The position numbers were made by a program, and so were the translations under genes. 64,000 bases of DNA from Polytrichum commune. Its lineage: Eukaryota; Streptophyta; Polytrichopsida; Polytrichales; Polytrichaceae. Below the pieces are notes generated by a model that was not told the origin of the DNA, did no database searches, and saw nothing but the letters and a program-made list of their open reading frames with translations. How positions within the stretch are numbered: position 1 is the first letter of the stretch; each line of letters starts with the position of its first letter. The stretch lies in assembly GCA_950295325.1 (NCBI GenBank), contig OX485809.1, forward strand, positions 35,841,081 through 35,905,080, given 5' to 3'. Shown piece after piece: positions 19,535 through 58,353 of this stretch.

Positions 19535-19680
19535 GGAACTTACGGACGCGCGTCCGTAAAGAGGGAGGCATGCTCAAAGGTTGATTACCTCTTCAGCGGT
19601 GAGTTCCTCGCCGGCAGTGCCTCCCTCACCAGGCCCAGTTGTGGGGCCAGGTTCCGGACGCGCGTCCGTAAATTCGCCAT
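19535..19680. repeat. Element 1 palindromes in intron 3 and exon 3 of gene A
   Basis: CTTACGGACGCGCGTCCGTA at about 19540 lies in intron 3, and a second copy (CCGGACGCGCGTCCGTAAA) at about 19653 is inside the coding end of exon 3. It is the only copy in this element that falls in coding sequence. Confidence 0.9.
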
Positions 19681-20977
19681 GCGTGTCTTCCACCACCAAC
19701 AAATCGGCTCCACCTGCTTGCGACGCTTGCGTGCCGACGAAAGGTTGATCCTCATGCGAGGAGTCTTGGCCCCCCCGCATATGTACATCTTCATCGGCGA
19801 GGGGGGCGTCGCCCATGTTGACATCTTCATCGTCTCCTATGGCGGGAGGGGAGGGCTCTGGAGCGGCAGCAACCTGGGGAGGGGGCGGGACAACCAACGC
19901 GGGGGCCGTATAGGTGTGCTCCGGTATGTACACCGTGTGGCTGCTAGAAGGAGTGCGCACCAGAACGGGGGGCACGGACATGGCGGGCTCGGGCGCTGCA
20001 TACACCACCTGGGGTCTTGCCTGCAAGCTTGCCATCATGCTCATGAATTGTTGGCTTTGAGCCAAGAATTGTTGATTTTGAGCCATGAGGTCGGCGTGCC
20101 TCCGAGCAGACTCCAACCTAGCTTGCTCCATCTCAGCTTGGATGGCGGCCATCTTCCTGGCGTGCTCTTCGTTGGCCTCCCGGAGCCGCATGTCAAGCTC
20201 TTCCTTCATCCTCTTCTCCATCTTCTCGTCCAGCTCGGAGACGGACATGGGCTCTCTCTTCACCTTGCCTGGCTCAGAAGGCAAGGCGGAGATGGAAGCG
20301 TACAGCCTCACCTCATCCTCGTCTTCATCTGAGAGTTCCAAGACGGCGCCTTCGGGGTATTCGTTGTAAGGCGTCTTGTTCCTCTGCCGCCGGCTTGCAC
20401 GGTAGGAGTCGATATCGGGCCTCGATATCAACTCTAGCATATCTCTACCTTCCATGGGCGGGAGCGCCGCCTGCTCACTGGGCTCTCCCCCACCAGAGGA
20501 CGCCGTGCATCCGGTTTCTGCAGCAAGGTCCGCATCCCTCTCCGCCATAAGCCTTGCAGCACGAGATGGCCCCGCAGTGGAAGGAAGCCCAACTCGAGAA
20601 GTGGGAGTCCCAAAGGGTGATAGACTAGGCGTATTATGAGGCACCCGAATTGGAGTGACGTTGGGCTGCGCCTCCTCTGCATCCATGTCGTCTTCACCCA
20701 GGAGATACGCCACGCGATACACTGGATGACGAGCAAGACCGCGCAAGTCTTCCTGCCTGGAGGGCTGTCCCCTTGGAGACATTGGATCATCGTCTCCATC
20801 GCTGCCCCACCCGCCTGCATGAGAAGGCTCTTCTCTAGAGGCAAGAGGAACAACAGGATGTGGGGTAATGATATCCAAGAAGTCATTGAGATCCATTTTC
20901 TCTGCAAGCTTCCTGTGATCTTTGCACTCATCCATGTCGCCAACCCCCACAAACGAGTTAACCTGCAACCCAAGCAT
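19589..20977 (-). CDS. Element 1 gene A, exon 3: acidic and coiled-coil region
   Basis: 463 codons, both ends phase 0 (acceptor GTGCAG|ATG, donor GAAGAG|GTAATC). It begins MLGLQVNSF, matching MLGLNIYSY in element 2. Features in order: acidic LELSDEDEDEVRLY (SUMO-interaction-like), VKREP (fits the psi-K-x-E sumoylation consensus), a heptad-rich helix from DEKMEKRMKEEL to HADLMAQNQQFL, a Pro-rich stretch, and an acidic tail. One copy of the element palindrome is translated near the C-terminus as FTDARP (about 19653-19672). Role unknown; multimerisation or scaffolding is likely from the coiled coil. Confidence 0.75.
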
Positions 20978-21054
20978 CTGCACCAAATTAAAAAAGTTAG
21001 TGGATTGTTGGTATCAAGATTGAATTGACGAGGAAGATGGACATACAAACATGA

Positions 21055-21215
21055 TGCAGTGTGCATTTTACGGACGTGCGTCCGTAAAATGCACACTGGG
21101 TTAGGTTTGATAACTTTACGGCCGCGCGGCCGTAAATATGCACTGCAGCGCGGCCGCAAAGTTGAAATGAACTAGGTGGTTAAACTTTACGGTCGCGCGG
21201 CCATAAAGTTGCATC
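21055..21215. repeat. Element 1 palindromes in intron 2 of gene A
   Basis: Intron 2 (20978-21249) carries a 34-bp palindrome at 21061-21094 built on the standard core, then core variants TTTACGGCCGCGCGGCCGTA (about 21114), a half copy near 21145 and TTTACGGTCGCGCGGCCATA (about 21183). Paired substitutions in the two arms (GACGC/GCGTC to GCCGC/GCGGC) keep the symmetry. Confidence 0.9.
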
Positions 21216-21249
21216 AGGTGGAGGCATGAAAGTTTTTTTAAGTACTTAC

Positions 21250-22569
21250 CAATGCCGCATAAACAAATTTGGTCCCCCCGAAGACGTTGTACACTGTCTC
21301 ACTCATCACAGTCACAGCCTTCAATACTCCTATGTAAAAGTCCATTCGGAGCTCGGTTGCCGAGCAGATTGTGAACATCGCCTCGTCCATTAGCTCCTTG
21401 GGGTGTGGAGGCGGCAACTGGTAAATTTTCTTGAACACGCTCTTCGCCTTTACAGGCAAACGCCCACTTGGCGAAGACTTCCGTGTCAAGAAATAGAGAC
21501 ATATAGCGCCGACCTGCTTTACCCCCCTTGCTTCTTCGATGACGGCGATGCCTTCCGTCTTCGCGGGGACGTATGTGCTGTGGAAGATATTGTATTCGAG
21601 ATCCATCGTCGAGTTGTATAGGTCGACGACCGCTGCGGATCTCTCTTGGTCCACAATCCACAGCCACACGTTTGGCTCCAGAAGTGCAGGGGACCGAAAG
21701 CTCTTGAAAGATTTCAGGAAGCTGTCGTAGAAAGGGGTCCCCGGAGGAGGTTGTTTCCAAGAATTTGGAAATGCACGGAAATCAAAGATAGCAAAAGGAC
21801 AACCCCGGGGGTCATCTCTCACAGTGGCCCGCGAAGCATGGGTGTCCCACTTGCTGAACTTGAATTGTGATGTCACAGCGCAAAACCTCGCGACACCCTC
21901 GAATTTGGCATTCTTTTTTCTATCGAGGAAGTGTTTATATAAAGTTGTCTCCCTTTCGTCGATAGAACCTTTCTTCTCGTTCTTCCTTGAGCGCTGGGCC
22001 AAGAACGGAGATGCTGCTCTTATCAATGCCTTCATTGAGACGCCATTGATGTGGTATGCTATTTTCAATCCCCTCCAGTTGTCCCACACAATGTCACCAT
22101 CTGCATCTGTAAGGTTGTAGGCGGGTACCAATTTGCCTATCTCCCTCATAGCCAATGTCTTCTTCTTCCTGTATTCGCACCATTCCTTAATATGGTACGT
22201 TGAAGGCTTCATAAACCTTGGTCGTTTGAGGAAGATTTTTGGATACGGCGCTGTCCTTCTCGGAGTCTCCTTAAGAAGGTGTTCTGCCGCCTTGTAAAGC
22301 TCGGCATCGAGCAACCCTTGGAGGGGACGGAAGAACTCTCTGAGGATTGGAGGCACCTTAATCTTCAGGTCCTCTTTGTACTTCTTCTCCGTCTCAAGGT
22401 TGATGAGTTCTCCGTTGCTGTGTGCATGGAAGACGCGCATCCAGATAGCCCAGGTCCTACCCGACGAAGTGATGAGCTTCAGTTCGCCCTTTAGATCTTG
22501 CACTGTCTTCATGCCGCTTTGCTTCATGTCAATGCTTGAGAACTTCGTCACAATCGCACTGCTGAATGC
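21250..22569 (-). CDS. Element 1 gene A, exon 2: conserved domain of unknown function
   Basis: 440 codons, fully open, phase 0 at both ends (acceptor TTGCAG|GCA, donor GCATTG|GTAAGT). Conserved with 54961-56292 along its whole length: KFSSID, ELKLITSSGRTWAIWMRVF, VPPILREFFRPLQGL, FLKRPRFMKPS, WCEYRKKKT, VWLWIVDQERSAAVVDLYN, LRMDFYIGVLKAVT, NVFGGTK. I do not recognise the family. The conserved W/LWIVD and RMDFY blocks suggest a folded globular domain, possibly a partner of the ParB-like domain encoded just upstream. Confidence 0.75.
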
Positions 22570-22629
22570 CTGCAAGTAGAGAAACAAATGAGTTGTTGAA
22601 ATGAGATCAAAAAATGGAATGAGAACCGT

Positions 22630-22735
22630 CTAGTTTACGGACGCGCGTCCGTAAACTTGGAGCACACAAAGAATAAAGGGAAAGTTTACAGAAAGAGTGA
22701 AGGAGAATTTACGGACGCGCGTCTGTAAATTCATT
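22630..22735. repeat. Element 1 palindromes in intron 1 of gene A
   Basis: Two core copies (about 22634 and 22709) inside the 178-bp intron 22570-22747. Confidence 0.9.
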
Positions 22736-22747
22736 TGGGAATATTAC

Positions 22748-24037
22748 CTGCCATTTGGGATTCTTGACGACTGCGTTGTCCCTCTCTTTTGGTGGACAGC
22801 CGTGCTCCTCCCACAAGGTCCTACCAGCCACGATGTTGGCTGCCCATGACGCCTCAAACGCTTTGATTTTGTTTGTCTGGTTGAGGAAGGCAGATATGGC
22901 GATGAGCTGATTGGAGTCCTCTGAATGCACGAGAAGTGCCTTCCAATATCGGATTGTGGGTTTCAGAGGGCTCTTCCAATTATCGTCTGCGAGGAGAGCT
23001 TTTGCCACTTCCACGCTATGCTGGCCGTCCACGATGTAGAATTCCCCTTGCTTAATAATTGGCCAATGTTCTGGTGTGACCTCCACGATTGGATCCTTTG
23101 GGGTCACACATATGGTCTGCCGGTCAGCTTTCGGGTTGTTCATGATGTTGTTCATCTGCCACCAGACCCCGCTCTCTTCTTGCACCCGAGTATTCATACT
23201 CTCGGTGCCCTGGTGGCATTTATAAACATCCACGTCAAATGTGAAATACCTGCCCATTGGCCAGCAGGCTTTCGTTTTTTCGTCGAACTCTTGTTGAATT
23301 TTTGTTGATAGATCAGAGTTCGGCCGTTCTCCTTTCTTCAGAAGTGGTGCGACAGTAAGGGTGGAGCAGACATCTGGACCTTCGGTAAGTCCAGATGACT
23401 CCATCTGTGAATGGGAGCGTTTACTGGATGGTCTGCTCCCTCTCGATGCTCCACTTTGGGACGGTTTTGGTCCTTCCGGGACTGTCTGTGGAACACGCGG
23501 TTGTCGTTCAGAAACGACTTTCTTCTTCCTTTTCCCCTTTCTGGACTCCAGGACTGCCCCATTCATTCTCGTGACATTGTTGAGGAGTCTTCCAAGCCGC
23601 TTACCCGTCCAAGGTGCATTGCATGCATAGTCTTGGAATTCAGTTGCAAGATTGAAGCAACCCGCATCCGGGCTGCCATTTTCGCATTCAGCCTTGTGGA
23701 ATGGATGTCTGTGCTCATGAAGAAGAATTGTGACTCTGTCATCTTATTTTTCAAGATCTATGACGACATAGTCACCTTGGGCCACTGCACACTCTACTGA
23801 CCAATTTTTAACTCTAACCCATTTATCTACGTCTATATCTTTGGTATTCATTTGATACCCAAATCTAAGTACGAATGTGTCATTCTCAAGTTTCTCTACG
23901 TAAACTGTCCAGTTGTCTACTGTGTCTTCGACTAGCTTGTAGTGATCGTTGTGGCTTATATCTTTGATGGCGGGTGGAAGTGGAGGCGGAAGAAACTCAA
24001 ATGCCTGGTCAATTGCAGGTCTTTTTGTAGATGCCAT
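22748..24037 (-). CDS. Element 1 gene A, exon 1: N-terminal domain plus ParB/Srx-like domain
   Basis: 430 codons from ATG (MASTKRP..., immediately after a CAG acceptor, as in element 2) to the donor CAG|GTAATA, phase 0. Residues 1-97 form a small domain (VEDTVDNWTVYVEKL...WVRVKNW...GDYVVIDLEK). A basic/Ser-Pro linker (SRKGKRKKKVV) follows, then a ParB/sulfiredoxin-superfamily domain: PMGRYFTFDVDV, DRQTICVTP, FYIVDGQHSVEVAKALL, LIAISAFLNQTNKIKAFEASWAANI. The usual DGQHR Arg is Ser here and in element 2. An in-frame TAA (23744-23746) interrupts the frame after DLEK; the frame stays open and homologous to element 2 beyond it. The lesion may be real decay, or a small intron may remove it. Confidence 0.75.
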
Positions 24038-24074
24038 CTGCAAATGCAAAAAACAATGCTTAGCATCATGATCA

Positions 24075-24720
24075 ATGTCAAGTTTACGGACGCACGTCCG
24101 TAAACTTTCCACAGGTTGTTTTGAATTATAATGTCAGAATGAACTATCCGAAAAGATTTTGCATATGTCAATATGAAATTTCACATGTAGTTTATGGACG
24201 CGCATCCGTAAACTATCAACGGGTAGTTGGGGATGAGAATCTCAACTATGAACAAAGATAAGATTTAATAAGATAGTTCTAGTTTACGAACGCACGTCCT
24301 TAAACTAGTAGTTGGGTTTACGGGGTTAGCACTAATTTACGGACGTGCGTCCGGAAACTAGGAATGGGGTTTACTTGGATGTCACTAGTTTACGGACGCG
24401 CGTCCATAAACTAGGAATGGGGTTTACTCGGATGTCACTAGTTTACGGACGCGCGTCCGTAAACTACGAATTTGGTTTCCTCGGATGTCACTAGTTTACG
24501 GACGCGTGTCCGTAAACTAGGAGTGGGGTTTACTTGGATGTCACTAGTTTACGGACGCGCGCCCGTAAATTAGGAAAATATACTGTCCATTAGTAATAAT
24601 ATTGTTTTTTAAATATATCCAGAACTTACGGACGCGCATCCGTAAGTTCTGGATATATGTTGCATGCTTCACCCACCTGGTGCGTCAAAGTTTACGGACG
24701 CGCGTCCGTAAACTTCAAGC
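24075..24720. repeat. Element 1 palindrome cluster in the 5' leader intron of gene A
   Basis: About ten core copies between 24083 and 24712, directly upstream of the AG acceptor that precedes the gene A start codon. Several sit in a ~54-bp tandem unit (GGGTTTACTCGGATGTCACTA plus palindrome) between 24.3 and 24.58 kb. One copy at 24613-24658 extends to a near-perfect 46-bp palindrome. Confidence 0.92.
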
Positions 24721-24739
24721 CCTACATTGGTTAATCTGG

Positions 24740-25740: not shown

Positions 25741-25794
25741 CCCCATCGCCACGTGGCTGAACCCTATAGGTTCATATTGGAGAGGTATGTGGCA

Positions 25795-29475: not shown

Positions 29476-29504
29476 AAGTGTCCTATTATGACGCCGCAAA
29501 TTAC

Positions 29505-30250
29505 GGAACTTTACGGACGCGCGTCCGTAAACATTACATCTCTTGACTTATTTGCTTATTGAATATCTCATATCTTATTGAATCTCTCAGTGGCTCGTTG
29601 CATCATTGAGTATCTCAATCTATTTTCATTGGCTCATTGAGCATTTACAAGTAGGTTTACGGACGCGCGTCCGTAAACATGCATCCTTTTGGTGTCACAT
29701 GGTGGTATGTCATCTACAATGTGGGCTGTGAATTATTATCTGTTTTGATAGTATGCATATTTGTTCTGATGAATATTTACGGACGCGCGTCCGTAAATCT
29801 TGAACCTTTTGCATCTGTTCTAGTAATGAGATAAAGGTAGATTTTCGGACGAGCGTCCGTAAACATACAAACCTCTTGCATCTGTTCTAGTAATGAGGTA
29901 AAGGTAGGTTTACGGACGCGCGTTCGTAAACATACAAACCTCTTACATCTGTTTAGTAATGGGGTAAAGGTATGTTTACGGACGCGCGTCCGTAAACAGA
30001 CAAACCGTTGGTATACATTCAAATACATTACTGGTAAGGCCAGGAGGTAAAATTTAGTGTAAATGTAAATGGGGCTGGGACTTCTTGGTTCCTTGCAACC
30101 CTATTTGTTTTGGACACAATTATCATTTGACATAGGGATGTTTACGGACGGGCGTCCGTAAACATACATTGTTTAATTTGCCAAGACGTTTGCGCCTAAC
30201 CCTGACATCTCTTATCAGATAATGATTTGCGGACGGGCGTCCGTAAACAT
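29505..30250. repeat. Element 1 palindrome cluster upstream of gene B
   Basis: Eight copies at about 29512, 29656, 29776, 29843, 29912, 29977, 30141 and 30227, mostly perfect. The 29.77-30.0 kb copies sit in a ~66-bp tandem unit (AACCTCTTGCATCTGTTCTAG...). Confidence 0.92.
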
Positions 30251-34010: not shown

Positions 34011-34048
34011 GAGACTTTCCAAAGTCTTCAAATAACGAATATAGTGTT
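34011..34048. repeat. Right terminal inverted repeat of element 1
   Basis: In reverse complement it reads AACACTATATTCGTTATTTG, then AAGACTTTGGAAAGTCTC. It shares AACACTATATTCGTTA with element 2 and has the same internal stem design. The 4 bp outside are ATCT (34049-34052), the expected duplication, but no partner end was found. Confidence 0.8.
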
Positions 34049-44577: not shown

Positions 44578-44634
44578 AACACTATATTCGTTAAATTGAG
44601 ACTTTCTCTAGTCTCAAATTAATATATGGATCAA
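44578..44634. repeat. Left terminal inverted repeat and stem of element 2
   Basis: The first 28 bp are the exact inverse of 60569-60596. Within it TTGAGACTTTCTCTAGTCTC, then AA, can fold on itself. The next ~30 bp are repeated at 50160-50190. Confidence 0.93.
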
Positions 44635-45109
44635 ACAACATTCCGTGTTCCGAAACTATATTGAGAACGATCTCAAATATATTATATGTTCTAATATCCC
44701 AAATCTATTATGTGTGGACATAAGCACATGTGGTAGAGCACTCAACACCAACTTCATCTACAAAAACACTTTGGGTAGAGCACTCCAAACTAGTTTCACC
44801 CAAGAAACATATAAAATAATTTCTATTATTAGCATGGTCAATAAAATATAGACATTGCAACATACAAAGTGCATGCAATAAATGCATTTTTCTTCAATGG
44901 AAAATTTAGTCCCAAACTTAATAAAAAAAATGAACTTCACAACTGTATTGAAATATAGTAAATGGATATTCATCCAACCCCAAACAATATAGCATTCGCA
45001 AGTTCTACCCAAACTTTGCCCCAAGTTTGAGGAGCACATATATGAGTAATATATATTCGTCGAATTACAGTTTACACTATAATCATGCTAACACAATCCT
45101 ACCAACTTC
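44635..45109. other. Left subterminal, non-coding
   Basis: AT-rich. A duplicated 'GTAGAGCACTC.A' block at about 44733 and 44776 and its partial inverse near 45010 suggest subterminal repeats. It also contains the 3' flank of gene B. Confidence 0.45.
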
Positions 45110-48100
45110 TCATTCAACGTGGGTTGCTTCTTCTGCGATCCGAGCAAGGTTGTCTTTTGCAAAAGTTATGTACTTTTGAGGGATGGACACTGATCCACTA
45201 TGATTTTTCCGTGGTTTCCATGCTATGAATATGGAATCTGTATCTACCCAAGATGGACCATGCTCAGAATCCACCTTCCACCGAAAGTTAGGGTTTGTAT
45301 CCCAGCCTGTATAATGCCGAACAACATCTTCATTCCGTGCTGTCGGTCGGTAGTACTCTACTTGTATTTGTCGAAAATGAGGGCTGGAAGTTACAAAATT
45401 TGGTTTGGACAAAGCTCTTGCCACCCACACTGGCTTTGCATATGTCTCATCTCCAGGGCGCAAAATGAGCATATAACCTTCATGACAATCCACTGCAATG
45501 CGGAAAGATGGTGGCGGACGACTACTAGCAGGCCCCACGTAATGGTCGTCCACATCAAACTCCTCTCGAACCTCTCCATTTCCCAAAAGACTAGCCTCCG
45601 AAGCTTGTACATTGACACGTGTTTGTGGCCAAAACCCATGCCTTAAAGTAAGGGGTGTATCTTCATGAAGGTTTGCCAAAGCGCCACGAACATGTGTCCA
45701 ATATTATATCCAACTTCCGTAACGAAGCCAACACGATCCACCAACATCCGCTACCCTCAAACTCTCCCAATATTGTATGAAGCCTGATATGCCTTTACAA
45801 ATGTCCTCCAAATTCTTCATGGGTATTGATTTGCAAGGCTTAGGCTCTCCGTCAGGCAACATCGTCCTTCCTTCTCCATCAACACGCCATACAAGGAGAC
45901 CCTCCGGCGGGCTCCAGTCTTGTGATGTGCACAACAACTTGTATTGCATGGCGGGGACACCATCGTCACGCACGTAGAACCGAAATTGTTGTGCCTTCGT
46001 ATGCCCGATCAATCGGTGAGCTCCGCTTCGAATATACGGTTCTATAAATGCCTTGAAGTCTGGAACCTCCTCGATCATATGGGGGATGACGGGAATGTTC
46101 TCCAAATCCATGTACGACTTCATCAACAATGGGATTGTTGGAAAATCCTCCTCGCGCAACTTCATGCTCCACCGCCCAAAGGACGCATCAATATCATCGT
46201 GCGTATGGCCTACCAATAGAAAGGACACAAAAACCTCCTTGAAAATGCCTTTCGCAACCAACAACGACCAATATGCAAAAACATATCTACTTTTATTGTC
46301 CTTCGCACAATTGTCCAATTGGACACGCAGAGTTGGGGGCAACTTCTTGGCAATCACATCTTCACTTGGTGGCTCCGGCAATGAGTGCACGCATACATCT
46401 CTTCCATCTAAGACCGCTTCATATAGAGGTGTTGATCCCGAGTTTTCAAATAACAATCTTGATGAATAGGACGGCGGTTTCTCCAAATCACGTAAAAGCT
46501 TTGCAAATGACCCTATCGTGTGGTTTGAATCCGCCGGATACAAATCAAGAGCATAATGAGCATATTTGACATCACCATGCCCATGTGCAATCATTCCTGC
46601 AAAGGCAACCCAATGGTTTAATATTCAACTATAACACCAAAAAATTCACATGGTGTACATGTATGGCCCCAAGTACAAACCTAAACGCACAAATTTGTGT
46701 TTAGGTAATGCAATGCAATTGTTATCAAAATCACCTGTAACCGAAACAGGAAGCTTAAAAAGGCCGTCCGTGGCTTTGATTCGATTTGCAAAACATGGTG
46801 AGGCTGTTTTGGCATGGTCCATCTTGTCATGGATGATTGTAAGGACTTCCAAAGGCCTGGAGATGGACAAAGCTCTATTTGTGTAGTAATCATTACGGTG
46901 TGCCTCTTGCATGTTCACATGCTTGAAATAGTTCATTTGATGTGCGGCATAGGACTCTGTCCCCATCGTGTGTGCATCTCGAAGGCGTTTCAACTTCTCG
47001 CATTTGGAACAACGGGCAAATTTGTCGCCTCGTCTTTTTGTGATGTATTCGCTAAAGTGAGATTTTTTTATAGCACTCAGTTTCGACAACGAAATTGGGT
47101 CCAACCCGGCCTTCTCGCCAACTGCGTTTACGTCCAACAATATGTCTTTCCATTTCGTGCCTGTAGGAAGAACCTTCTCCACAACCTTTTCACCGGTTGC
47201 GAGTGTGCGTGTTTTGTGCGGCATTGCATCGGCAAGGGGGACAATGATGGTTGCCAAAGTGGCTGTTGCTTGTCTCGTTGCTTCTCTTGGTTTCTTTAAG
47301 CCCATGTTCCCATGGTGACGGGCACGGCGGCCTTCATTGGCATACGCGGCTTGTCTATAAAATTCCGCTTTCGACACACCATGAATGGTGTACCATGCCG
47401 TACAACACACGTCTATGCTCTCAAGGGTGATGACCTTGCGACCCGCTCTGTTCACATGTATCGCCCTATGGACATCAAGTTTTTTGGTGGATCTTAGACG
47501 GAAATCTCCAAGCCACATTTCTTCACGGATGGCCTTCAATTTATCTCTTGGGAACAATTGGCAACAACGATGTACACAACAATCCTTCGTAGCAACTTCT
47601 CTAATAGACTCCTCACAGAGCAACCTTTGACGTTTACACTTATTTGCAGACGGAGTAGGACGTGTCAATGTTTCATACTTCCGAAGGCCTTTGCGTGGCC
47701 GAATGTTTGCTTGGAGCTCCTGTTGGATTTGGACGTGTCGTCGCTCATGGTCGCGCAAGCTAACCCCCTCAATTGTCACATTCCTCAACGGCCACCTTTG
47801 CAACGAGAACCTATGAGTTGGATTGACTTCCGAATGTACGAGTGATTCTAATATAACAACTCCAACGTCCTCGGTGCCAAGGGGGTGTTCATCAATGCAA
47901 TCTTGTGGATGTGTGTTACGACAAATACCCTCCGCCACAGCAACTCCACTGTCATTAACAAGTACCACATCCAAATTCACCCATGAAGCTCGTGAAAGCC
48001 CCGCACATTCCACAATGGGGCAAAAAGGGTCAGATGGCGAAGGACTCCCCAAATGACCTTCATCTGCACTGTCATCAAAACTATCCTCCCCGACAATGTC

Positions 48101-48178
48101 TAGCTCATCCCCAGACAGAGATTGGGTGCTGCCCATGTCTTCAGAGAAGGAATCCCCTCTTCCACCAACTCCCTCCAT
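45110..48178 (-). pseudogene. Element 2 gene B: DUF7869-type transposase, frameshifted
   Basis: Minus strand. Exon 1 is 48178-46735 and exon 2 is 46596-45110, with the intron in the same place and phase as in element 1. Start MEGVGGRG follows a TGTAG acceptor. The core is conserved: IIHDKMDHAK, VQLDNCAKDNKSRYVFAYWS, VGHTHDDIDASFGRWSMKL. A +1/-1 shift at about 45700-45716 moves the frame from ...ESLRVADVGGSCW to ...LRHGFWPQTRV; homology to element 1 continues in the new frame to the end (...LARIAEEATHVE). The lesion removes the C-terminal ~200 residues but leaves the catalytic core. Could be real decay or a base-call error. Confidence 0.8.
46660..46720. repeat. Unrelated palindrome in the gene B intron of element 2
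   Basis: The intron 46595-46734 lacks the GGGTCG palindrome but holds a different near-perfect inverted repeat, ACCTAAACGCACAAATTTGT followed by GTTTAGGT (about 46679-46706). Confidence 0.65.
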
Positions 48179-48369
48179 TACGCCTACACACATGCACATG
48201 AAATCTCAACAAACATGGACACAACGTAAGGGTCCAAAAGAATCAAATATTGGAAAATGCAAAACATCACGATGAATGGGGACACTGAGGATCAAGACAT
48301 TTGCAACACAAATGCAATGTGAGCTCCCAATACTATGCGCCAGTCCACAAAATGTTCCACAAAATATTT

Positions 48370-49410
48370 TGGGTGGGAGTTTGGGTCAGCCGACCTAAAC
48401 CCTATGGCACCAGGGATTGAGGGCCATCCCCACCTTGCCCGTGGGATAGGGTCGGGTTCCGGTCGACCGACTCAAACCTTGTACAATGATGGGTTGAGGG
48501 CCATTTAGAATTCCATCACACTGTGGGGAAAACTTTGGGTCGACCGACCCAATCCTTGTCATGGTCAACTACAACCGCCGAAACTGGGGAAGGGGTTTGG
48601 GTCGACCGACCCAAACTTTCACAGGGTAAACCCACCCACACTCAGAAAGGGTTTGGGTCGGTCGACCCAAACTTTCACAGGGTAAGTCCACCCACACCGG
48701 GAAAGGGTTTGGGTCGGTCGACCCAAACTTTCACAGTGTAAATCCACCCACACTGGGATGAGGTTTGGGTCGCTCGACCCAAACATTACATATGATGGGA
48801 TAAGGTTCCTACTATGTCCGTCCAAACCTTCTGAGTACCTTGGGTAAGGGCCATTAACAATTCGTTCACGATGTGCGAAAAAGTTTGGGTCGACCGACCC
48901 AAACCTTCTAAAAGGTTTTACGATAAACGCCCACAGTGGGGTAGGGGTTTGGGTCGACCGACCCAAACCTCACAAGGGTCAGAGTAGACCCCCCCCCAAC
49001 ACTAGTGAAGGGGTTTGGGTCGACCGACCCAAACCTCACAAGGGTCAGAGTAGCCCCCCCCCCAACACTAGTGAAGGGGTTTGGGTCGACCGACCCAAAC
49101 CTCACAAGGGTCAGAGTAGACCCCCCCCAACACTAGTGAAGGGGTTTGGGTCGACCGACCCAAACATCACAAGGGTCAGAGTAGACCCCCCCCCAACACT
49201 AGTGAAGGGGTTTGGGTCGACCGACCCAAACCTCACAAGGGTCAGAGTAGACTCCCCCCAACACTAGTGAAGGGGTTTGGGTCGACCGACCCAAACCTCA
49301 CAAGGGTCAGAGTAGGCCCCCCCCCAACACTAGTGAAGGGGTTTGGGTCGACCGACCCAAACCTCACAAGGGTCAGACTGGAACCCGCCAACACTAGTGT
49401 CGACCGACGT
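48370..49410. repeat. Element 2 palindrome array upstream of gene B
   Basis: About sixteen copies of TTTGGGTCGACCGACCCAAA and variants (centres AC, GT, CT, or broken arms near 48390 and 48460). From about 48905 to 49395 they sit in a ~66-bp tandem unit with AAGGGTCAGAGTAGACCCCC and AACACTAGTGAAGGGG, C-run lengths varying. The array would lie in a leader intron of gene B (acceptor at about 48184). Confidence 0.93.
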
Positions 49411-49419
49411 ATAATACAA

Positions 49420-49475
49420 CGTATAATGCGGCGTATAATGCGGCATATAATGCAGCGGATATTGAGAGGTGTGTG
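49420..49475. repeat. CGTATAATGCGG short tandem repeat
   Basis: ACGTATAATGCGGCGTATAA and variants, four to five units of ~12 bp, at the end of the palindrome array. Confidence 0.75.
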
Positions 49476-49599
49476 GAATTTCAGCTCATTGCAAAGTTCA
49501 CTGCGGACTTGCATGCTGTGGATAGGTCTTCATGAACAGCAGCGTGAACGAACCTCGAAGTACAGCTCCGACTAAGAGTTCTCTCTACGAATTCAGGAG

Positions 49600-49665
49600 T
49601 GGGAGAAGAGCAAAAAGAAACCAACTTTTGGGGGGTGCGCCCCTTTATACTATCCACCTCCACTT
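49600..49665 (-). promoter_or_regulatory. Probable promoter of element 2 gene B
   Basis: On the minus strand, GGTGGATAGTATAAAGGGGC gives a TATA-like box at about 49647-49655, with a leader-like region (49.4-49.6 kb) before the palindrome array. Distance and orientation suit gene B. Confidence 0.4.
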
Positions 49666-50130
49666 GCCCGACTTCCTCATTGGATGCCTTTCCCGCCTTA
49701 TTATTTCAAACCTCCTGACAGAATTCCCCGTTTTCTGTTTATTGTAGAAAATGCGCATCTTTCAATGCCCCTCTCATACCCCAGCCGTCATATGATTTAG
49801 TCTATGATATTTAATGTTTTTTTGGTTTTGTGTGTATATGACATACGACATTGGGAGGAAGGGTGGCGGCCACATTAATTTTTTCAAGTGTCACAACGGT
49901 ATATTTTAACCAATATGTATACCCAACCACAACTCCATTCAATGCTTTCAAGTGCAAACCTATTTCGGTGGGGTTGGGGCCATTTGGAGGCTGCAATTAT
50001 GAGAGAGTTTCCAAGGCTTGAGGCCATTGTCATGATGAATAAAATTATTTATTTGTCTCCCCTAAACCCTAAACCCTAGAACATTGCTCTATTATCTCGC
50101 ATGGAAGTGTGGCAATGATAAACGTATGTA

Positions 50131-50190
50131 GCACTATATTCGTTAAATTCAGACTTTCTCTAGTCTCAAATTAATATATGGATCAAACAA
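50131..50190. repeat. Internal copy of the element 2 terminus
   Basis: CACTATATTCGTTAAATTCA and the following ~40 bp match the left terminus 44580-44635 with one visible change (GAG to CAG). No paired right end was found nearby. A remnant of a second, related element or an internal duplication. Confidence 0.8.
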
Positions 50191-51641
50191 AAACTTCTAC
50201 AATGTCACCCTAATGCATCATATACATATTAAATGATGATATTGATCTACTTTAATTCAAACATTACGGTATGGCATTAACCAATATGTAGACAAAAGAA
50301 GTCTAAACATTGTGTAACGCCTTATGGTAAGAGTCACTAAATACAATAGTTAAAGTGGTTATGAAGATCCTCGCAAGGGGAATTATTAATTTTGAAATCA
50401 AATTATGTCATGACAAAGTTCATTTATTGTTCCAAATCTGAATTTGCAACAATGCAAGTGACAAGAGCTTTTATATATAATATGTTGTCATCCCTAAACC
50501 CTAAACCCTACAATATTGTCCTCTTCTCTCGCATGCAAGTGTGGCAATGACGAATGTATGTGGACGTCGATAAGGGGATACTAACTACCAATGTCGCTTT
50601 TTAGTTCAATATTTCCATGCTAATTGAATCCATCCTCAAGTTCACTTCAAGCTTACTAATGTGTGTGAACAAAACATCCAAAGTTGAACCCTAAACCCTT
50701 ATAACATCCACAACATGAAATTATACGTATTGACTAAACCATACACCAATTAGTATATCATGTTTAGACGTTCCAAATAACATATTCACATGATCAAGAT
50801 TGTGGTCACTATAACCTTCCTATTAGACTCTTCTTAATATATAAACAACATTTCTTATATCTTTCTCCATTATCTAATATACGTGGAGGGAACAATGAAC
50901 AACAACACGATTGCTTGCATGGCTTCATTTGATGTTGTGCTTAACCGATTTACGTTTATATCACATTCCATATATTAAATACATCACGAACCATAGTTTA
51001 TTGGCGACTATGTGATTCATCAAAGGGAGCAAAACATCCAAAGTTAGACCCCTAAGTCCTAATAACATCCACAACATGAAATGCTATTTGAATAAACACA
51101 AGACCAATTAGTATATCACGTTTAAACGTCCCAAATAACAACTTAACATACTCAACATCATCTTTACTATAACCTTCCTATAAGACTCTTCTCACCAGTA
51201 AGTCAATGTTGTACGTTAATATTGGATAGATTAATATGTTATAACCATGACTCCTAAACCCTAAAGTTACCCTAAACCCCAAATCTTGTAGTTGTTCAGT
51301 GCTACCTCCATATACAAACAACATCAAGTTTGTCTTGCGCCATTATCTAATATACTTGGAGCGAACCTTCAATAACAACATGATTGCTTGAAGGGCTTCA
51401 TATGATGTTGTGGTTCTCCGATTTGCTTTTATATCACATTCCAAGTACATATATCACGATCCATGATTTATTGGCGACTATGTGATTCATCAAAGTGAAT
51501 ATCTAGGGGATACCCTATAAAACTTGAGCATGTTAGCATTTTGAAATAAAGATCATGCAATTCCAAACCCTCACAATATGCACTTGGGGAAGGTATTCAT
51601 TTAGGCTCCACATTCAAATATCCTCAATTTCCGAATTTCAT

Positions 51642-51798
51642 GTTGGGGGGTGGGGATTGTCTTTTTTATTCATTGCATATTGTGTGAGTTGTTGGCATCA
51701 ATGGTAAAGTCTATTGTATTTGGCACGTAATTGTATTTTTTTTATAACGTGCTCAAACAAACGAGAAACCAATGACTTCAACTTGTTTGGAAAATTTA
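51642..51798. repeat. Inverted copy of the window-start repeat
   Basis: Reverse complement of 1-168; ends near CAACTTGTTTGGAAAATTT at about 51798. Confidence 0.75.
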
Positions 51799-51934
51799 GT
51801 TAATGGTGTCATGTAAGTAGGAATTAAGTATTAGTGTTAGCATAAAGTTGCGTTGTAAAGATGTATTAGTTGTATAAATGGTTTAGTTTTTTAGAATACC
51901 TCATTTGATGTATACCTTAGGCTACTCCAAAGTC

Positions 51935-52820
51935 TATTCAAAATTGTACTACCCGCTAAGGGTTTACTCCTTAGAGGGATGGGAGTTAGGGTTCCCCGTA
52001 ACCCTATTCCCGTTGCTGCCCTAATCACGTTGGCACCCTATTCGCGCGGTTGGGGGCCAATTCCCGAGGGTAACAAAACCCCAGCCGCCAAGCATTCTCC
52101 TCCTTTCTCTCTCTCTCTCCCGCCAACCTTTCGCTCCGCGCCTCTTGTGGAAGCGCCGCCTCTCCTGAAGCGCCGTGGCAATTCAGGGTGGCGCTTTTCT
52201 TTACATTCCTTCTCCACCCTTTTTTCTTCTCCTTCCCTCCCTTCTCTTGCTGTAGCGGGAGATTGCACTAGTGTTGCAATATATAGCATTGTTGAAGTGT
52301 TTTCCAGATTGTTGAAGGGTTTTCCAACATTCTGTGTGAGCTTTAGGCAGTGCTTGCGAGAGTTCGAAGTGCGGATGAGTGCATGTGAGTGCTTGTGAGT
52401 GCATGTGAGTGCTTGTGAGTGCATGTGAGGGCTTGTGAGTGCATATGAGTGCTTATGAGTGCATGTGAGTGCTTGTGAGTGGTTGTCAGATTAGGAAGTT
52501 CTATAAGAGATACAAAAGTGATACAAAAGTGCTTTCAGAGATTTAGTTATTGTTTTGAGAGATTCAGTTGTTGTTTTAACAGACTCAGTTGTTGTTTGAG
52601 AGTTACAATTGTTGTTTGAGTGATTCTGAAGAGACTCAGGAGTTGTGTGAGAGATTGTGGGTTTATTGAGAGATTCAAGAAAGGTTTGAAATCTTTGGTA
52701 GTTGTTTGTGAGTTTTAGCGTGTCTGCGAATAGGAATTCACTGATTCTGTCTTAGTCGAAGAAGAGCACTTGTTCAAAAGCAACCATCTGCAACGACTAC
52801 AACAGAAACCCTCAACAAAG
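51935..52820 (+). promoter_or_regulatory. Probable leader of element 2 gene A
   Basis: CT-rich stretch (CTCCTTTCTCTCTCTCTCTC at about 52100) and TTTTTTCTTCTCCTTCCCTC typical of plant 5' leaders, a TGAGTGCATGTGAGTGCT tandem repeat (52375-52480), then a possible donor AAAG|GTATTG at about 52820. The region mirrors the CT-rich leader of element 1 gene A. Confidence 0.4.
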
Positions 52821-52934
52821 GTATTGTTTTTCAAGGGGTTCCAATATGTGTTTCTTAATTGACAGTGTTGTAGCATACACAATGCATAAGCATTGTATAT
52901 GCTACATGCCAAGTTTAAAAAACTATATTAAAAT

Positions 52935-53300
52935 AGAACAGTTTGGGGAGACGACCCAAACACAGCCTATAGTTTGGGTCGATCGACCCAAACAGCACGA
53001 TGTGCTTTGGGTCCCTAAACCCTAAACACAGCCTATAGTTTGGGTCGATCGACCCAAAGCACATCCTGCTGTTTGGGTCGGTCGACCCAAACGCAACCTC
53101 TACAGTATAAACTTTTCAAGAAATCCTTGATGACAATATAAAACGCAAATCCACCCAAGATAACGAAATACCATATAAACATATAAATGAAGTTCTAAAA
53201 TAACAAGACACAATCCAAAAATAAATGCGTTGATGCATTACATTTCCCTTCCATCACGTGACATCTAATCTATTGTGAAGAAGTTTGGGTCGAACGACCG
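52935..53300. repeat. Element 2 palindromes in the leader intron of gene A
   Basis: TTTGGGTCGATCGACCCAAA at about 52973 and 53039, TTTGGGTCGGTCGACCCAAA at about 53070, and a degraded copy at 53283 just before the TTTGCAG acceptor at 53330. Confidence 0.92.
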
Positions 53301-53330
53301 AAACTAACATCCTTGCTTCTTTCTTTGCAG

Positions 53331-54656
53331 ATGGCCCCAAAGAAAAGACCAGGAGAAAGGTGGTTCATGCTTGCGCCAGACGTGTTATGGCAGGAGCACG
53401 AAACACCTCAGGATGACTCATATGTCCCTAAGGACGGGCTTGTCCTCGCCTGGTCAATTCAAGTAGTAAAAACCTCCATTTACAAACTGATATTCGTTGT
53501 CAAAGTAGGGACCGTGGAAAAACATACCTGGGCGACTCTTACAGGATGGGAGGTGGCGTCGGTCCAGTCTTTTGGAGACTACGCAGACGTCATCCTTGAG
53601 AACAACGCTGTGCAGAATGCTCATATGTTTCTGTACTAGTTCGTCGAACCCTTTGACGCTACATATGCAAGGGAGTCATGTGTCGAACCTGATGTAATCA
53701 AACCCAAGACAATTTTCATCGATGCCAGTACATCGAACACAAAGGTCTCGAGCCGGTTTACGAAACTAAAGCATGCAATCAGCGTGCTCAACAAAGCCCT
53801 GCAGAGCAAAACGAAGTCTCAGCAAGCCGTCAGGCGGAAGGTACCCACTGAGGAAGGTGCAGGGTCGTCAAGGCCTCAATCAGTGAGGATGCCGCAACCA
53901 GTCCCGGCTAGCTCAAGACGAACCACTCCATCGGAGACACCGGCGGATAGCCAGACTCCTACGCCTTCTGGCAGCCGCCAAACAACTCCCTCCAAGAGGG
54001 CGAGAGAGTCATCTGTGATGACTGACGAGCCAGTCTCTCCAGAATTGCGCATGCCGAAGCCAGGGCAGGAAGTGGATGCAGGGGAGATCCAAAAAATCGT
54101 GAACAATTTCACGACCAAGTGCTCCCATTGCTTTTTCATGGGCAGGGATTTCAAATTCGACGTGAACATCAGTCAGTGTCATCTCGCGCCACCAGAAAAA
54201 TGTGTCCGAGCAAAAGAAGACGCCTACGTCGATTGGATAATCGCGCAGATCGTTAGCGAACAATTCAAAGACGACAGGCAAACCATTGTAGTGATGCCCC
54301 AGGGACTGAAGAAAATGCCTACCCCTCAAATGTGGGCGACAATTCAGAAAGGCGATTTTTGGCTCATAGACGGCCAACACAGCGTTGAGGCTTCCAAGAA
54401 AATCCAACTGATGACTGAATGGGACGATCCCAACCATCAGAATGAGAAATTGAAGGTGTGGAAGGCACTGGTGGTGTGGTCTGACGATGAGACCCGACTG
54501 AGCGACATCTCCCGTTACTTTAACATGGGGAATAAGAAAAGGGCCTACCAAGCTTCCTGGATAAGGAATATCATGGCCTCGCGGGAGGTGTGGGAGTTCT
54601 ATGGTAGGCCTCCCAAGGAGAGGGAGAATGCAAAGGACAAGAATCCCAAGTGGGAG
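53331..54656 (+). pseudogene. Element 2 gene A, exon 1: N-terminal domain plus ParB/Srx-like domain (in-frame TAG)
   Basis: 442 codons in one frame from ATG (MAPKKRPGERW, after a TTTGCAG acceptor) to TGGGAG|GTGAGT, phase 0. It has a small N-terminal domain (LAWSIQVVKTSIYKLIFVVK...GDYADVILEN), a basic Ser/Thr/Pro linker, then the ParB/sulfiredoxin-type domain: FFMGRDFKFDVNISQCH, DRQTIVVMPQG, FWLIDGQHSVEASKKI, RLSDISRYFNMGNKKRAYQASWIRNI. TAG at 53637-53639 interrupts the frame between the two domains; the frame downstream is open and homologous to element 1. The family match rests on the DGQHS box and surrounding pattern; DNA binding and nuclease activity are possibilities, not shown. Confidence 0.75.
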
Positions 54657-54960
54657 GTGAGTATTGTTTGGGTCGATCGACCCAAACTCCTTTTGCAGCT
54701 TTATTTGTGTATTTTGGGTCGCTCGACCCAAACTCTTGTTGCAGTCATGTTTTTTAGTTTGGGTCGCTCGACCCAAACTCTTGTTGCAGTCATGTTTTTT
54801 TTAGTTTGGGTCGATCGACCCAAACTCTTGTTGCAGTCATGTTTTTTTAGTTTGGGTCGATCGACCCAAACTCTTGGTGCAGACACTGGTCATGATATGT
54901 TTTGGAAATCACATGTTCATATCTAACATGCATTCAAATGATTGTTTTGATCACATGCAG
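54657..54960. repeat. Element 2 gene A intron 1 with five palindromes
   Basis: Palindromes at about 54668, 54713, 54757, 54803 and 54851, centres AT or CT; four share a ~46-bp unit (ACTCTTGTTGCAGTCATGTT). The intron is GT-AG. Confidence 0.93.
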
Positions 54961-56292
54961 GACTTCAAATACCAAATGATAAATAAATTCTCCTCCATTG
55001 ATAATGCTAGTCACAAACAGAAGAAATACAACGAGCTTAGAGGGGAGATTTATTTAATAACAGCATCCGACTCCGTTTGGATGAAGTGGAAGAGTGTATT
55101 TGAGAAGCATGAGACGGGTGAGCTCATCGACCCGGACACAGGAATTTTCTTCAACCAAACCACGCGCTTCAAACAAATGAAGCCTCTCGTGAGAGAGTTC
55201 TTTAGAACTCTTCAAGGCCTTTCCGAGACGGAGATGGAGAAGGCGGCGGCGCACATCCTGCATTTCACGCCCACGGCGAAAAGGTGCTGGGTGCACCCGA
55301 AGATTGTCTTCTTAAAGCCCAAATCCTTCGTCCCTTCATGCTACACCATGAAGGAATGGACTGAGAATAGGAAAAAAAAGACAACTATAGTGCAGGAGCT
55401 GCATAAATTGGTGCCGGAGAGGAATATTATCGTGGACGGCGAGGTTCATGAGGCTAACTGGAGAGCATTCAAAGCTGAATATAAGTTCACCAGTGCCTCC
55501 ATGGCGGCTCTAATAAGGGAAGCGGGGGATGACTTCTTGCGGGCCAAGATGGTGAAGGGTGGGAAGAACCGGGCGCTTCCGGATCACACAGCGCGTGCGT
55601 TCTCGAACTTCATCAAATAGAAGAAGATTGTCCAGTTTGAAGGGGACGCTTACTTCAACCTTGTCACCTTCGAGCCTTTGAAAATTCAGGGCTGGCCAGG
55701 TCAAGACGCCAGAATGGCGATAAGGACGAAAGCAGGGGGGCGTTTCCCATTCGGAATGATAGATTTCAGGAACATTCCTGGAAGCTCATTTGAGGGTACG
55801 ATGAGCACACTGTTTTACGACCCCTTCCTATCTAAGTTCGTCGATTATGCGAGTCCTAAGTTCAGGGAGGTTGATGTCTGGCTATGGATAGTCGAGGATA
55901 GGAGGGCGGAGCAAGTGTACGACCTTGTCCGGAAATTGCAGCCGGAGTATGCAGTCTCCAAGTCTCACTACATCGCCGCACCGGCGGAGGGGGCCTACAC
56001 GTCGTTGAAGGACAAGAAGACCAAGGTCGTCAACGTCCTGTGTTTGTACTTCGTGTACAAAGCGGAGTTGTTGAAGGTGCCGAACCACCCTATATCCCGG
56101 ATGGACAAGCTCTTCCAAGTTCCAGATGGGTTAGGTTCCAGCAAATGCCTATACGACGAGGCCAAATACGCAAACTATCCTGCAGATGAGCTGCGGATGG
56201 AATTCTACATGCGGATGCTGAGGACGCTGACTAGGAGAGGGGACTGTATCTTCAACGTGTTCGGGGGCTCGAAACCCCTCTATGCTGCCATG
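54961..56292 (+). pseudogene. Element 2 gene A, exon 2: conserved domain of unknown function (in-frame TAG)
   Basis: 444 codons, phase 0 at both ends (ATGCAG|GAC; GCCATG|GTAAGT). Same blocks as element 1 exon 2: INKFSSIDN, GEIYLITASDSVWMKWKSVF, FFRTLQGL, FLKPKSFVPSCYTMKEWTENRKKKT, VWLWIVEDRRAEQVYDLV, LRMEFYMRMLRTLTRRGDCIFNVFGGSK. TAG at 55618-55620 lies where element 1 reads D-R in FLDRKKNAKFEG (here FIK-stop-KKIVQFEG). I do not recognise the domain. Confidence 0.75.
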
Positions 56293-56410
56293 GTAAGTTA
56301 CATTCTTTAGCTCTTGCGCAGTTTGGGTCGGTCGACCCAAACTAAATATTGTTTTTGGTCTTGTTTTTTGTCTTGCAAATTCTAATTTCTATATAACTTG
56401 GATTGTGTAG
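56293..56410. repeat. Element 2 gene A intron 2 with one palindrome
   Basis: TTTGGGTCGGTCGACCCAAA at about 56322 in a 118-bp GT-AG intron. Confidence 0.92.
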
Positions 56411-57895
56411 ATGTTGGGGTTGAACATCTACTCGTACATAGAGGATAGCGATCTGCAATTTTACAGGACGCAGAAATCGCTGGCAAAGAAGATGGATATC
56501 CTCGATTGGATCCCGGGAAGCTACGTGGACGAGGTTGTTGAGGGGGGTGAGAACCCTCTTGATAGGGCGAGGCGGATCAACCCGGAAGAAATTGCGATAA
56601 GGGCAACAACCCAATTACCCGAACCTCTAGTCGGGTTGCATCCGGGCAATCCGTCCCGTACAGGAGGTGGAGAGGTGGAAGAGGAGGAGGAAGAAGAAGA
56701 ACACGGAGAGGAGGAAAAGGAGGGGGATGTGGAGGAAGGGGCAACGGGATTCACGCAAGAATCTGAAGCCCCTCAGAGGAAGAAGGCTATGCGTGTGGCA
56801 ACCCCGCAGAGTAAGATGATGCCCGTCCTTACGGTGGACGATGCGAGGGACATGTACTCCAGGGACGCGACTGCCACGTTCCGGGAGAGGAGGAAGTTAA
56901 AGGGAAAGAAGCTCTATGGCGATTACGCATTGGAGGAGACCATTGCCATTAGCAGCGAGGACGACGACGACATTGAGCTCGCCAAACGGCTCAGATCGGA
57001 TCCCCCCTCCCCGACAGCGTTCGCAGGCATGGTTAGGGTGAAACCTGAAGTCCTCACTGTGGAGGAAGCCAACGAGAAGATGCGTAGAGACGAGGAGCAG
57101 CGCGTCCGCCTGCAGAGGGCTGCCGCGGAAGAACCCTCCGTGCGGAACGAGGTTGCAGAGCTGAGGGCTCTCCTCTTGGAACAAGAAAGACTAAGGGCGA
57201 TGGCCCAACCTCCATCCAGCGCCGACTTGATATCGCAAGTCATACAAGGGATGTGGGCGCAAGGATTGGTGGTGGCTCCATCCAGCTCGTTTCCGCACTT
57301 GCCCCCCGGTTTCCCAGCGCAGAGCATCCCTCAGCACCCAGTGTCGCAAGGGTCATTCAGCTTCCAGCACATGATGCGGCCGCCCCATGTTCCGTACGCG
57401 CCGGTCCAACAAGTGGACGATCCCAACATCTGGCGCGTATCTGGAGCCTCCTCCCCGTTGGGCCCTCCACCACTACGACCCCCCATAGTGATGGCGCCCC
57501 CTCACCAGCCGGACGATCCCAGGATGTTTGGGTCGACCGACCCAAACCCACCCTCGACTGTAGTGCCCCAAGGCGCCTCCCCCGATGTAGGACAGTTTGG
57601 GTCGCCCGACCCAAACCCCGGAGCAGCTTAGTCCTCCCTTGACGAACTTGTGTCTCAAAGAGACACAACCATGTTAGATGTTGAAGGCCTCCAAGGGCCT
57701 GGTGATACCTCTAATCCTAACCAAATCGATGAACCCATGCATGATGCATATGCGGAGATTGGTTTAGGACAAGGGCCTGATGCTCAACCTTTGCAGGACA
57801 AGGTCCCTGACGTAGGCGGAGAAGGCGGTGGCGAGAGAGGTGGGGCACCAGGGACGGTGGAGGCATCCACATCGTCGAGACATGACCAGGGCGAG
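56411..57895 (+). pseudogene. Element 2 gene A, exon 3: acidic/coiled-coil region (in-frame TAG)
   Basis: 495 codons in one frame, phase 0 (TGTGTAG|ATG; GGCGAG|GTAACA). Starts MLGLNIYSYIEDSDLQFYRT, then Glu-rich low complexity (VEEEEEEEEHGEEEKEGDVEE, about residues 90-110), ETIAISSEDDDDIELAKRL (SUMO-interaction-like), VRVKPE (psi-K-x-E), a heptad helix (VEEANEKMRRDEEQRVRLQR), and a Pro-rich tail. Two palindromes are translated as FGSTDPN (57527) and FGSPDPN (57596). TAG at 57629-57631 precedes ~88 further open codons up to a donor matching element 1's. Confidence 0.7.
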
Positions 57896-58353
57896 GTAAC
57901 ACACTGAGCCCTCCCAGTTTGGGTCGACCGACCCAAACCTCCTTGGTCATTGTCTTGTTGGCGTGGTCTTGTCCCCCCTAGCTATGAGGAACTACACCCC
58001 CCCGACGCACCCAACAACGTGCTCCCCCCGCGATCCCCTTCGTCTCACCTCACTCGACTACGCTCAACCTTGGCGGCGCGCAACCAATTTTGTAGATGTA
58101 CAATTAGGATAGTGTGAATGCCCTCGTTCACCGCCCCCCCCCTCAAATTGTACATAGAGATTTGTAACAATAAAATTATTATTTTTGGCGCCCATATGTT
58201 AGCATCCGTGTCCCAATGTATGTTGTTCCCCTTGTATGTTTTTGTTGCCACCAATGGTCCAATTCTTCTTGTGTTTGCACAAAATTTCCGTTCTGCTTGA
58301 ATTAAACATAGCATAACATAGTCCTCGCCGCCTTCTCTCGCTCGTCGCCGCAG
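57896..58353. repeat. Element 2 gene A intron 3 with one palindrome
   Basis: TTTGGGTCGACCGACCCAAA at about 57914, just after the donor. The acceptor is GTCGCCGCAG at 58353. The rest is non-coding with C-runs. Confidence 0.9.

Follow-up and report, generated by a model that had tools for sequence, protein, structure and literature searches.

Introduction

Why would two related transposons each repeat a palindrome of its own, almost always within the predicted introns of its genes? This question is raised by a 64,000-nucleotide stretch of the genome of the moss Polytrichum commune (contig OX485809.1, forward-strand positions 35,841,081 to 35,905,080), referred to here as the window and numbered from its first letter. 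The window holds two related large DNA transposons, E1 and E2, each consisting of two main genes, A and B, in divergent orientation. An initial annotation of this DNA drew attention to the palindromes, and here we consider their number, placement, relatives and function. Most likely they are binding sites for the element's own gene A protein, that is, a parS-like address that would serve either an anti-silencing resembling that of the VANC proteins of Arabidopsis transposons or the control of the element's own genes.

Results

Each element carries its own palindrome

E1 contains 26 copies of TTTACGGACG-NN-CGTCCGTAAA, all within 19539-31776 and counted at up to 4 mismatches to TTTACGGACGNNCGTCCGTAAA, and E2 contains 28 copies of GTTTGGGTCG-NN-CGACCCAAAC, all within 48380-57937 and counted at up to 3 mismatches to TTTGGGTCGNNCGACCCAAA. 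The E1 motif is absent from E2 and the E2 motif is absent from E1, in agreement with the initial annotation, which had assigned each element about 25 copies of a private palindrome. Each site measures 22 bp, made up of two 10-bp arms around a 2-bp spacer (TTTACGGACG-NN and GTTTGGGTCG-NN); the flanking G and C of the E2 site are kept in 93% and 96% of its copies, giving it the same length as the E1 site. The window contains 59 perfect palindromes of 9+2+9 form, 37 of them of the E1 or E2 type, against 0 or 1 in 20 first-order Markov simulations of the window; of the other 22, an AT run accounts for 12 and another array for 8, and 2 stand singly. Neither exact motif occurs in the viral contig collection, and the exact E2 motif occurs once in prokaryote genome contigs.

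The annotation had also described a corresponding placement in the two elements, namely the leader and introns 1, 2 and 3 of gene A and the leader and intron of gene B in E1, with matching places in E2 apart from the gene B coding intron. The counts confirm this (Table 1), no copy being found in the E2 gene B coding intron. Likewise, only 1 of the 26 E1 copies and 2 of the 28 E2 copies are coding, as had been stated, whereas coding sequence makes up 52% and 56% of the respective spans (binomial p 2e-7 and 6e-8, with exon limits a few bases off and copies taken as independent although several are tandem-duplicated). All three coding copies stand immediately ahead of the predicted donor of intron 3, and splicing from an earlier donor could place them in the intron instead. 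The leader introns were placed by splice-site consensus alone, and no donor site was fixed for the E1 gene A leader. By eye, the 46-bp units of E2 intron 1 (54666-54882) contain TTGCAG-like acceptors, a potential 3' splice site copied with the palindrome.

The palindromes recur in relatives of gene A

Gene A has 153 database relatives, obtained with E1 exon 1 (39), E1 exon 2 (52) and part of E2 exon 1 (62) as queries and carrying the source labels ena, jgi, lgn and ncbi, with two labelled 'src'. Because gene A had no match in viral contigs or prokaryote genome contigs, conservation was read from open reading frames (ORFs) that run on into introns. These ORFs were cut at splice sites and the intron part was tested for its ability to encode the scaffold TTACGxyCG or TTTxGGyCG, a procedure that reveals a site only if it precedes the first in-frame stop and is read in that frame. 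Of the 128 read-through pieces, 77 spell such a palindrome, against an average of 0.09 over 200 shuffled sets; no fewer than 7 of the pieces are coding sequence that was cut wrongly, and the strict scan misses one-change variants. The match in P0138 is doubtful, consisting of five residues at the ORF end. Among the coding parts, 1 of 153 contains a palindrome, and this one (P0081) is really an uncut intron 1 read-through. The scan fixed CG at the arm end; with this constraint lifted, 107 tails yielded 91 sites, of which 89 allowed CG (40 of them only CG) and 2 gave TG.

The palindrome DNA is read in all three frames (FTDARP, LRTRVRK and YGRASV), and the constraint therefore lies on the nucleic acid and not on the peptide. 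Palindromes are present in intron 1 of clades I, II and III, and in intron 2 of clades I and II, the only ones searched for that intron. Clade I, which is E1-like, reads TTACGGACG and in some members TTACGGCCG; clade II reads TTACGAACG; and clade III, which is E2-like, reads mostly TTTGGGTCG, with a few members having TTTCGGTCG, TTTCGGGCG or TTTGGGCCG. The LRTxVR frame cannot separate the clade I type from that of clade II. Within the clade II read-throughs in this frame, the spacer residue takes 10 values in 17 sites and the half-sites are constant, the pattern that two-fold symmetry would predict. The spacer varies less in clade I, where R occupies it in 6 of 9 sites.

Half-site type agrees with protein phylogeny

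The distribution of half-site types matches the phylogeny of the gene A protein. A tree was made of 57 exon 1 proteins, and 42 of them were labelled, with one-change variants allowed; on it the seven half-site types need 7 changes (the minimum being 6), compared with a mean of 22.9 for shuffled labels, which fell as low as 7 in 0 of 200 trials. Three close sister pairs differ in half-site (P0119/P0120, P0113/P0114 and P0096/P0106), as judged on just one or two visible sites in each protein. Within a clade the half-site is stable, and turnover is occasional. The annotation had gone further, proposing that sequence is not conserved and that the recognised sequence turns over rapidly. Change does occur, as in the sister pairs, but "rapid" is an overstatement when so few changes suffice for all the labelled proteins. 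Similarly, the E1 and E2 half-sites agree at only 6 of 10 arm positions (2, 3, 6, 7, 9 and 10), but one half-site can persist across whole clades, and the difference between E1 and E2 needs qualifying since these elements are far apart (34% identity over the aligned part of gene A exon 1).

The first visible palindrome keeps a clade-specific distance from the 5' splice site

Distances run from the start of the intron to the first palindrome that can be seen, in tails with a site and with clades assigned by BLAST. The intron 1 distance is 17-20 nt in clade I (10 of 11), 5-7 nt in clade II (11 of 13) and 9-10 nt in clade III (17 of 23), and the intron 2 distance is 34-47 nt in clade I (10 of 10) and 16-22 nt in clade II (14 of 15). 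The tails examined for intron 1 numbered 18, 14 and 36 in clades I, II and III, with 7, 1 and 13 lacking a strict site, and those for intron 2 numbered 17 and 23 in clades I and II, with 7 and 8 lacking one. Stop-codon visibility favours short distances, but the tight clade-specific values are not explained by it. The clade I peptide between donor and site has a mean identity of 7%, versus 72% in the last 30 exon residues; in clade III this interval is mostly two residues, with 34% identity versus 87% in the exon end. With palindromes in three clades, three reading frames and near-constant clade distances, the proposal that selection acts on position and symmetry is well supported.

Gene A is predicted to encode a ParB-like and methyltransferase-like protein

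The predicted fold of gene A exon 1 is nearest to Noc/ParB and that of exon 2 is a DNA methyltransferase. The whole protein would join a ParB/Noc-like domain, a degenerate methyltransferase-like domain, probably a disordered region, and a domain resembling phosphatases of the RNA polymerase carboxy-terminal domain (CTD). The ParB-like and N4/N6 methyltransferase-like domains would be joined in one transposon gene, the single mRNA being a prediction. Exon 4 of E2 matches PF03031 at E 1.2e-13, as its E1 counterpart does (Table 1), and sequence profiles gave no methyltransferase match for gene A. Exon limits were set at GT/AG sites and, for E1 exons 1 and 2, also at the point where homolog similarity ends. 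E1 gene A has one in-frame stop, at codon 98, where homologous ORFs read through, and E2 gene A has in-frame stops at codons 103, 662 and 1293; both copies are therefore probably decayed.

Outside the palindromes, noncoding CpG observed/expected is 0.50 and 0.55 in the two elements and TpG/CpA is 1.29 and 1.26. The CpG ratio of the window beyond the two elements is 0.67, and that of element coding DNA is 0.81-0.82. This CpG depletion, together with the TpG/CpA excess, suggests that E1 and E2 have been methylated, although the contrast is modest.

The elements and their surroundings

Inverted repeats at 44578 and 60596 delimit E2, the only complete copy; the left end of E1 was searched for and not found. 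The terminal repeats of both elements contain CACTA, the ends of E2 being AACACTA. By blastn, E1 and E2 resemble each other only in the gene B exons (67%), at their ends (78-80%) and over 50 bp of gene A exon 1, at its end. The DUF7869 protein of gene B is presumed to be a DDE transposase. A Pfam scan of the exon ORFs at E up to 0.1 found DUF7869 in gene B and NIF in gene A and no DUF1985/DUF287 or Mutator-like element (MULE) transposase, and an Rfam scan of the window at gathering thresholds gave no match.

Several other features lie in or near the elements. At 50129-50190, in the intergenic region of E2, the left-end sequence of this element recurs in the same orientation. About 0.2 kb at 37170-37385 has sequence like the E2 ends on each side, the two in opposite orientation, with no palindrome, and resembles a miniature derivative. 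By eye, a possible third gene of E2 lies downstream of gene A (59290-60090), and CCCTAAA repeats, similar to plant-type telomeres, are scattered in the intergenic parts of E1 (27667-28650) and E2 (50060-51280). Between the two elements, 39335-42272 is a separate CACTA-type stretch with Transposase_21 and DUF4218. Finally, a 222-bp tandem array of 10.7 copies (6670-9047) contains another palindrome, CTGTCTCGG-NN-CCGAGACAG, in 8 perfect 9+2+9 copies; it sits between two related reverse-strand ORF groups (618-4376 and 9716-12904) that look MULE/SWIM-like by eye and gave no Pfam match. The array may mark a third family of elements that carries a tag of its own.

Table 1. Positions of the genes, exons, palindromes and ends of E1 and E2 in the window
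Feature	Position	Strand	Description
E1 gene A	18476..24037	-	4 coding exons, 1588 codons
E1 gene A exons	24037-22748, 22569-21250, 20977-19589, 19243-18476	-	
E1 gene A exon 1	22748..24037	-	predicted N-terminal domain, perhaps PH-like, and ParB/Srx-fold domain
E1 gene A exon 2	21250..22569	-	predicted helical part and degenerate beta-class N6/N4 DNA methyltransferase fold
E1 gene A exon 4	18476..19243	-	NIF/CTD phosphatase-like domain, PF03031, E 2.4e-13
E1 gene A leader array	24083..24712	-	10 palindromes, partly in a 53-bp tandem unit
E1 gene A intron 1 (22747-22570)	palindromes 22634..22729	-	2 copies
E1 gene A intron 2 (21249-20978)	palindromes 21067..21207	-	3 copies, two of GGCCG/GGTCG type
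E1 gene A exon 3 end/intron 3	19539..19672	-	copy at 19651 coding in the model, copy at 19539 in intron 3
E1 gene B	30301..33402	+	DUF7869 protein, PF25273 E 2.2e-38; 977 codons, open across one intron (31706-31873)
E1 gene B leader	29510..30247	+	8 palindromes, partly in a 67-bp tandem unit
E1 gene B coding intron	31755	+	1 symmetric variant, GTTACGGATG-CG-CATCCGTAAC
E1 right terminal inverted repeat	34021..34048	-	matches the right-hand repeat of E2
E2, whole element	44578..60596		terminal repeats AACACTATATTCGTTAAATTGAGACTTT, candidate 4-bp target duplication GTAA
E2 gene B	45114..48178	-	DUF7869 protein, PF25273 E 1.1e-42; in-frame stop near 45704
E2 gene B leader array	48380..49361	-	15 palindromes, partly in 56- and 66-bp tandem units
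E2 gene A	53331..59166	+	exons 53331-54656, 54961-56292, 56411-57895, 58354-59166; 1651 codons
E2 gene A leader intron (52821-53330 by consensus)	palindromes 52973..53303	+	4 copies
E2 gene A intron 1	54667..54870	+	array of 5 palindromes with a 46-bp tandem unit; first copy 10 nt into the intron
E2 gene A intron 2	56322..56341	+	1 palindrome
E2 gene A exon 3 end	57527..57615	+	2 palindromes (57527, 57596), coding in the model
E2 gene A intron 3	57918..57937	+	1 palindrome

Discussion

The symmetry of the sites, their free spacer, the tie between half-site and clade, and the DNA-handling folds predicted for gene A are the grounds for reading the palindromes as sites of protein binding. Noc/ParB proteins load on palindromes. 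Dimers of the gene A protein would recognise the two half-sites on either side of the free 2-bp spacer, and the arrays that both genes have in their leaders and introns would load this protein across the transcribed DNA of the element. The outcome would be a sequence-specific anti-silencing directed at the element's own copies, much as VANC achieves but through unrelated proteins. We place at about an even chance the proposition that each lineage has one address read by its own gene A protein, with anti-silencing of its own copies as the most likely effect. A more specific mechanism, in which a ParB-fold protein loads beside splice donors, spreads, marks the DNA as "self" and excludes the silencing machinery, with palindrome and protein changing together, seems to us rather unlikely. 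The system is unusual and is well supported at the sequence level; its function is what we infer.

A number of observations weigh against binding by a ParB-like gene A protein. The exon 1 model has a mean predicted local distance difference test score (pLDDT) of 70, and the tie to ParB is one of fold only: sequence profiles and chains gave no ParB match for gene A, and yielded just a weak DUF6551 match (10 of 32 members, best E 0.012). Bacterial ParB proteins have an arginine signature and bind cytidine triphosphate (CTP). In the exon 1 alignment, DGQHS stands at the presumed place of this signature, which makes CTP loading by the gene A domain doubtful. Methyltransferases are expected to have the motifs DPPY/W and GxG, and at these sites exon 2 reads DFRxIP and FGGTK; with the usual catalytic motif apparently gone, this domain looks catalytically degenerate. 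Furthermore, 51 of the 128 read-through pieces have no strict site, the match between half-site and protein may reflect only joint inheritance in one element, and the clade-fixed distance from the donor suits a role in splicing or elongation at least as well.

This last point bears on the idea that the palindromes are operators for self-regulation, with gene A protein in the leader introns or beside the donors controlling elongation or splicing and thereby setting copy number, and its CTD-phosphatase-like domain acting on RNA polymerase II. The sites do lie in predicted transcribed introns of both genes, with the first intron 1 site at clade-specific distances of 5-7, 9-10 or 17-20 nt, and gene A does have a NIF/CTD-phosphatase domain. 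However, copy numbers such as 15 in one leader are above usual operator need, and the phosphatase-like exon of E2 matches no solved structure by sequence at E 0.01 and shows the motif DLNG, not the expected DxDx; we regard self-regulation as possible but somewhat unlikely. It is also worth considering that the palindromes might form intronic RNA hairpins that influence splicing or RNA fate, with no DNA-binding protein involved. Nearly all copies are intronic in the gene models, the first is near the 5' splice site in relatives, and 4 pairs in E1 have changed on both sides and are still complementary. Yet it is the arm sequence itself that is held, with unchanged pairs at 238 of 260 in E1 and 245 of 252 in E2; one-sided changes number 17 in E1 (5 of them G-U capable) and 7 in E2 (2 G-U capable), and one further E1 pair changed on both sides without pairing. 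The 2-nt spacer would make a poor loop, three copies are apparently coding, and the half-site type tracks the protein clade, all of which renders an RNA hairpin improbable.

CACTA elements have subterminal repeats that act at their ends, and the palindromes could conceivably be transposition sites of this sort, for example accessory sites that pair the ends, given that CACTA is present in the terminal repeats of both elements and that the short repeat has many copies. Against this, the copies nearest to the E2 ends are about 3.8 kb and 2.7 kb away, and the 0.2-kb stretch at 37170-37385, with family-like ends on both sides, has no copy, making such a role quite improbable. That the arrays are passive products of tandem repetition without function is barely credible: several arrays are indeed tandem duplications, but single non-tandem copies recur at matched positions in three clades, and the clade I sequence between donor and site is not conserved.

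It is informative to set the proposed binding by gene A protein beside known systems. The VANC proteins of Arabidopsis bind subfamily-specific motifs in the non-coding DNA of their own VANDAL transposons, introns included, and remove silencing (PMC5735166; PMC10398659); the VANDAL motif is the 9-bp YAGTATTAY, VANC carries DUF1985/DUF287, and the motifs multiply as tandem repeats (PMC5735166). VANDAL elements are MULE-type and are called MuDR in passages of PMC12730594. The likeness to VANDAL and VANC lies in a transposon-encoded protein, subfamily-specific non-coding motifs, tandem amplification, and the use of different motifs by related subfamilies; within the window, E1 and E2 likewise have subfamily-specific noncoding arrays amplified as tandem repeats. 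In contrast, the elements described here have DUF7869, a predicted ParB-like/methyltransferase-like protein, and 22-bp palindromes at set distances from donors.

The gene A protein type is not wholly new, since algal transposons such as Sola1-1_Ec32 of Ectocarpus have an accessory gene opposite the transposase that encodes ParB-like and N4/N6 methyltransferase domains, according to passages of PMC12477816. As far as that description extends, Sola1-1_Ec32 and the moss elements are both large eukaryotic DNA transposons with a ParB-like and methyltransferase-like accessory gene (by predicted fold in the moss) on the strand opposite the transposase, the moss elements differing in a methyltransferase that looks degenerate, a phosphatase-like exon, DUF7869 and a candidate cognate palindrome. 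The passages of open-licence literature that we found name no target site for transposon ParB/methyltransferase proteins, and a search of that literature found nothing on DUF7869 or on ParB-like moss transposons and, for ParB with N6-adenine methyltransferases in eukaryotic transposons, just a paper on BREX; in the passages of PMC4469406 and PMC9210286, "ParB" is another use of the letters and not the ParB protein.

Compared with ParB-parS and with Noc and its binding sites (NBS), gene A shares a ParB-type N-domain fold, as predicted by modelling, and short palindromes on the DNA that would be marked, but here the palindrome is 22 bp with a free 2-bp centre, occurs in tens of copies, is intronic and is eukaryotic; moreover, no sequence-level relation was detected and the CTP signature seems not to be kept. 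CACTA (EnSpm) elements have CACTA ends, a 3-bp target duplication and subterminal repeats. E2, by comparison, has AACACTA ends with the candidate 4-bp GTAA duplication and internal palindromes, and gene B is DUF7869 with no tnp2-type Transposase_21, which in the window stands separately at 40 kb. Passages of PMC12730594 describe fungal transposons with TET/JBP dioxygenases, whose protein is thought to counter DNA methylation. A transposon-borne protein that would counter DNA methylation is proposed here as well, but in the fungi the protein is an enzyme, the proteins are unrelated, and the target motif is unnamed in those passages. The closest reading by analogy would be a VANC-like self-recognition of a transposon by an algal-type ParB/methyltransferase protein.

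If the gene A protein does bind these palindromes, this would be a further and unrelated case, beside VANC, of a transposon using a private sequence to label its own copies, and transposon-borne ParB/methyltransferase proteins would gain a defined target. It would also provide a natural series of proteins and palindromes, with seven half-site types, from which the rules of recognition might be read. Furthermore, the clade-fixed distance from the splice donor raises a testable link between the self-marking of transposons and transcription or splicing.

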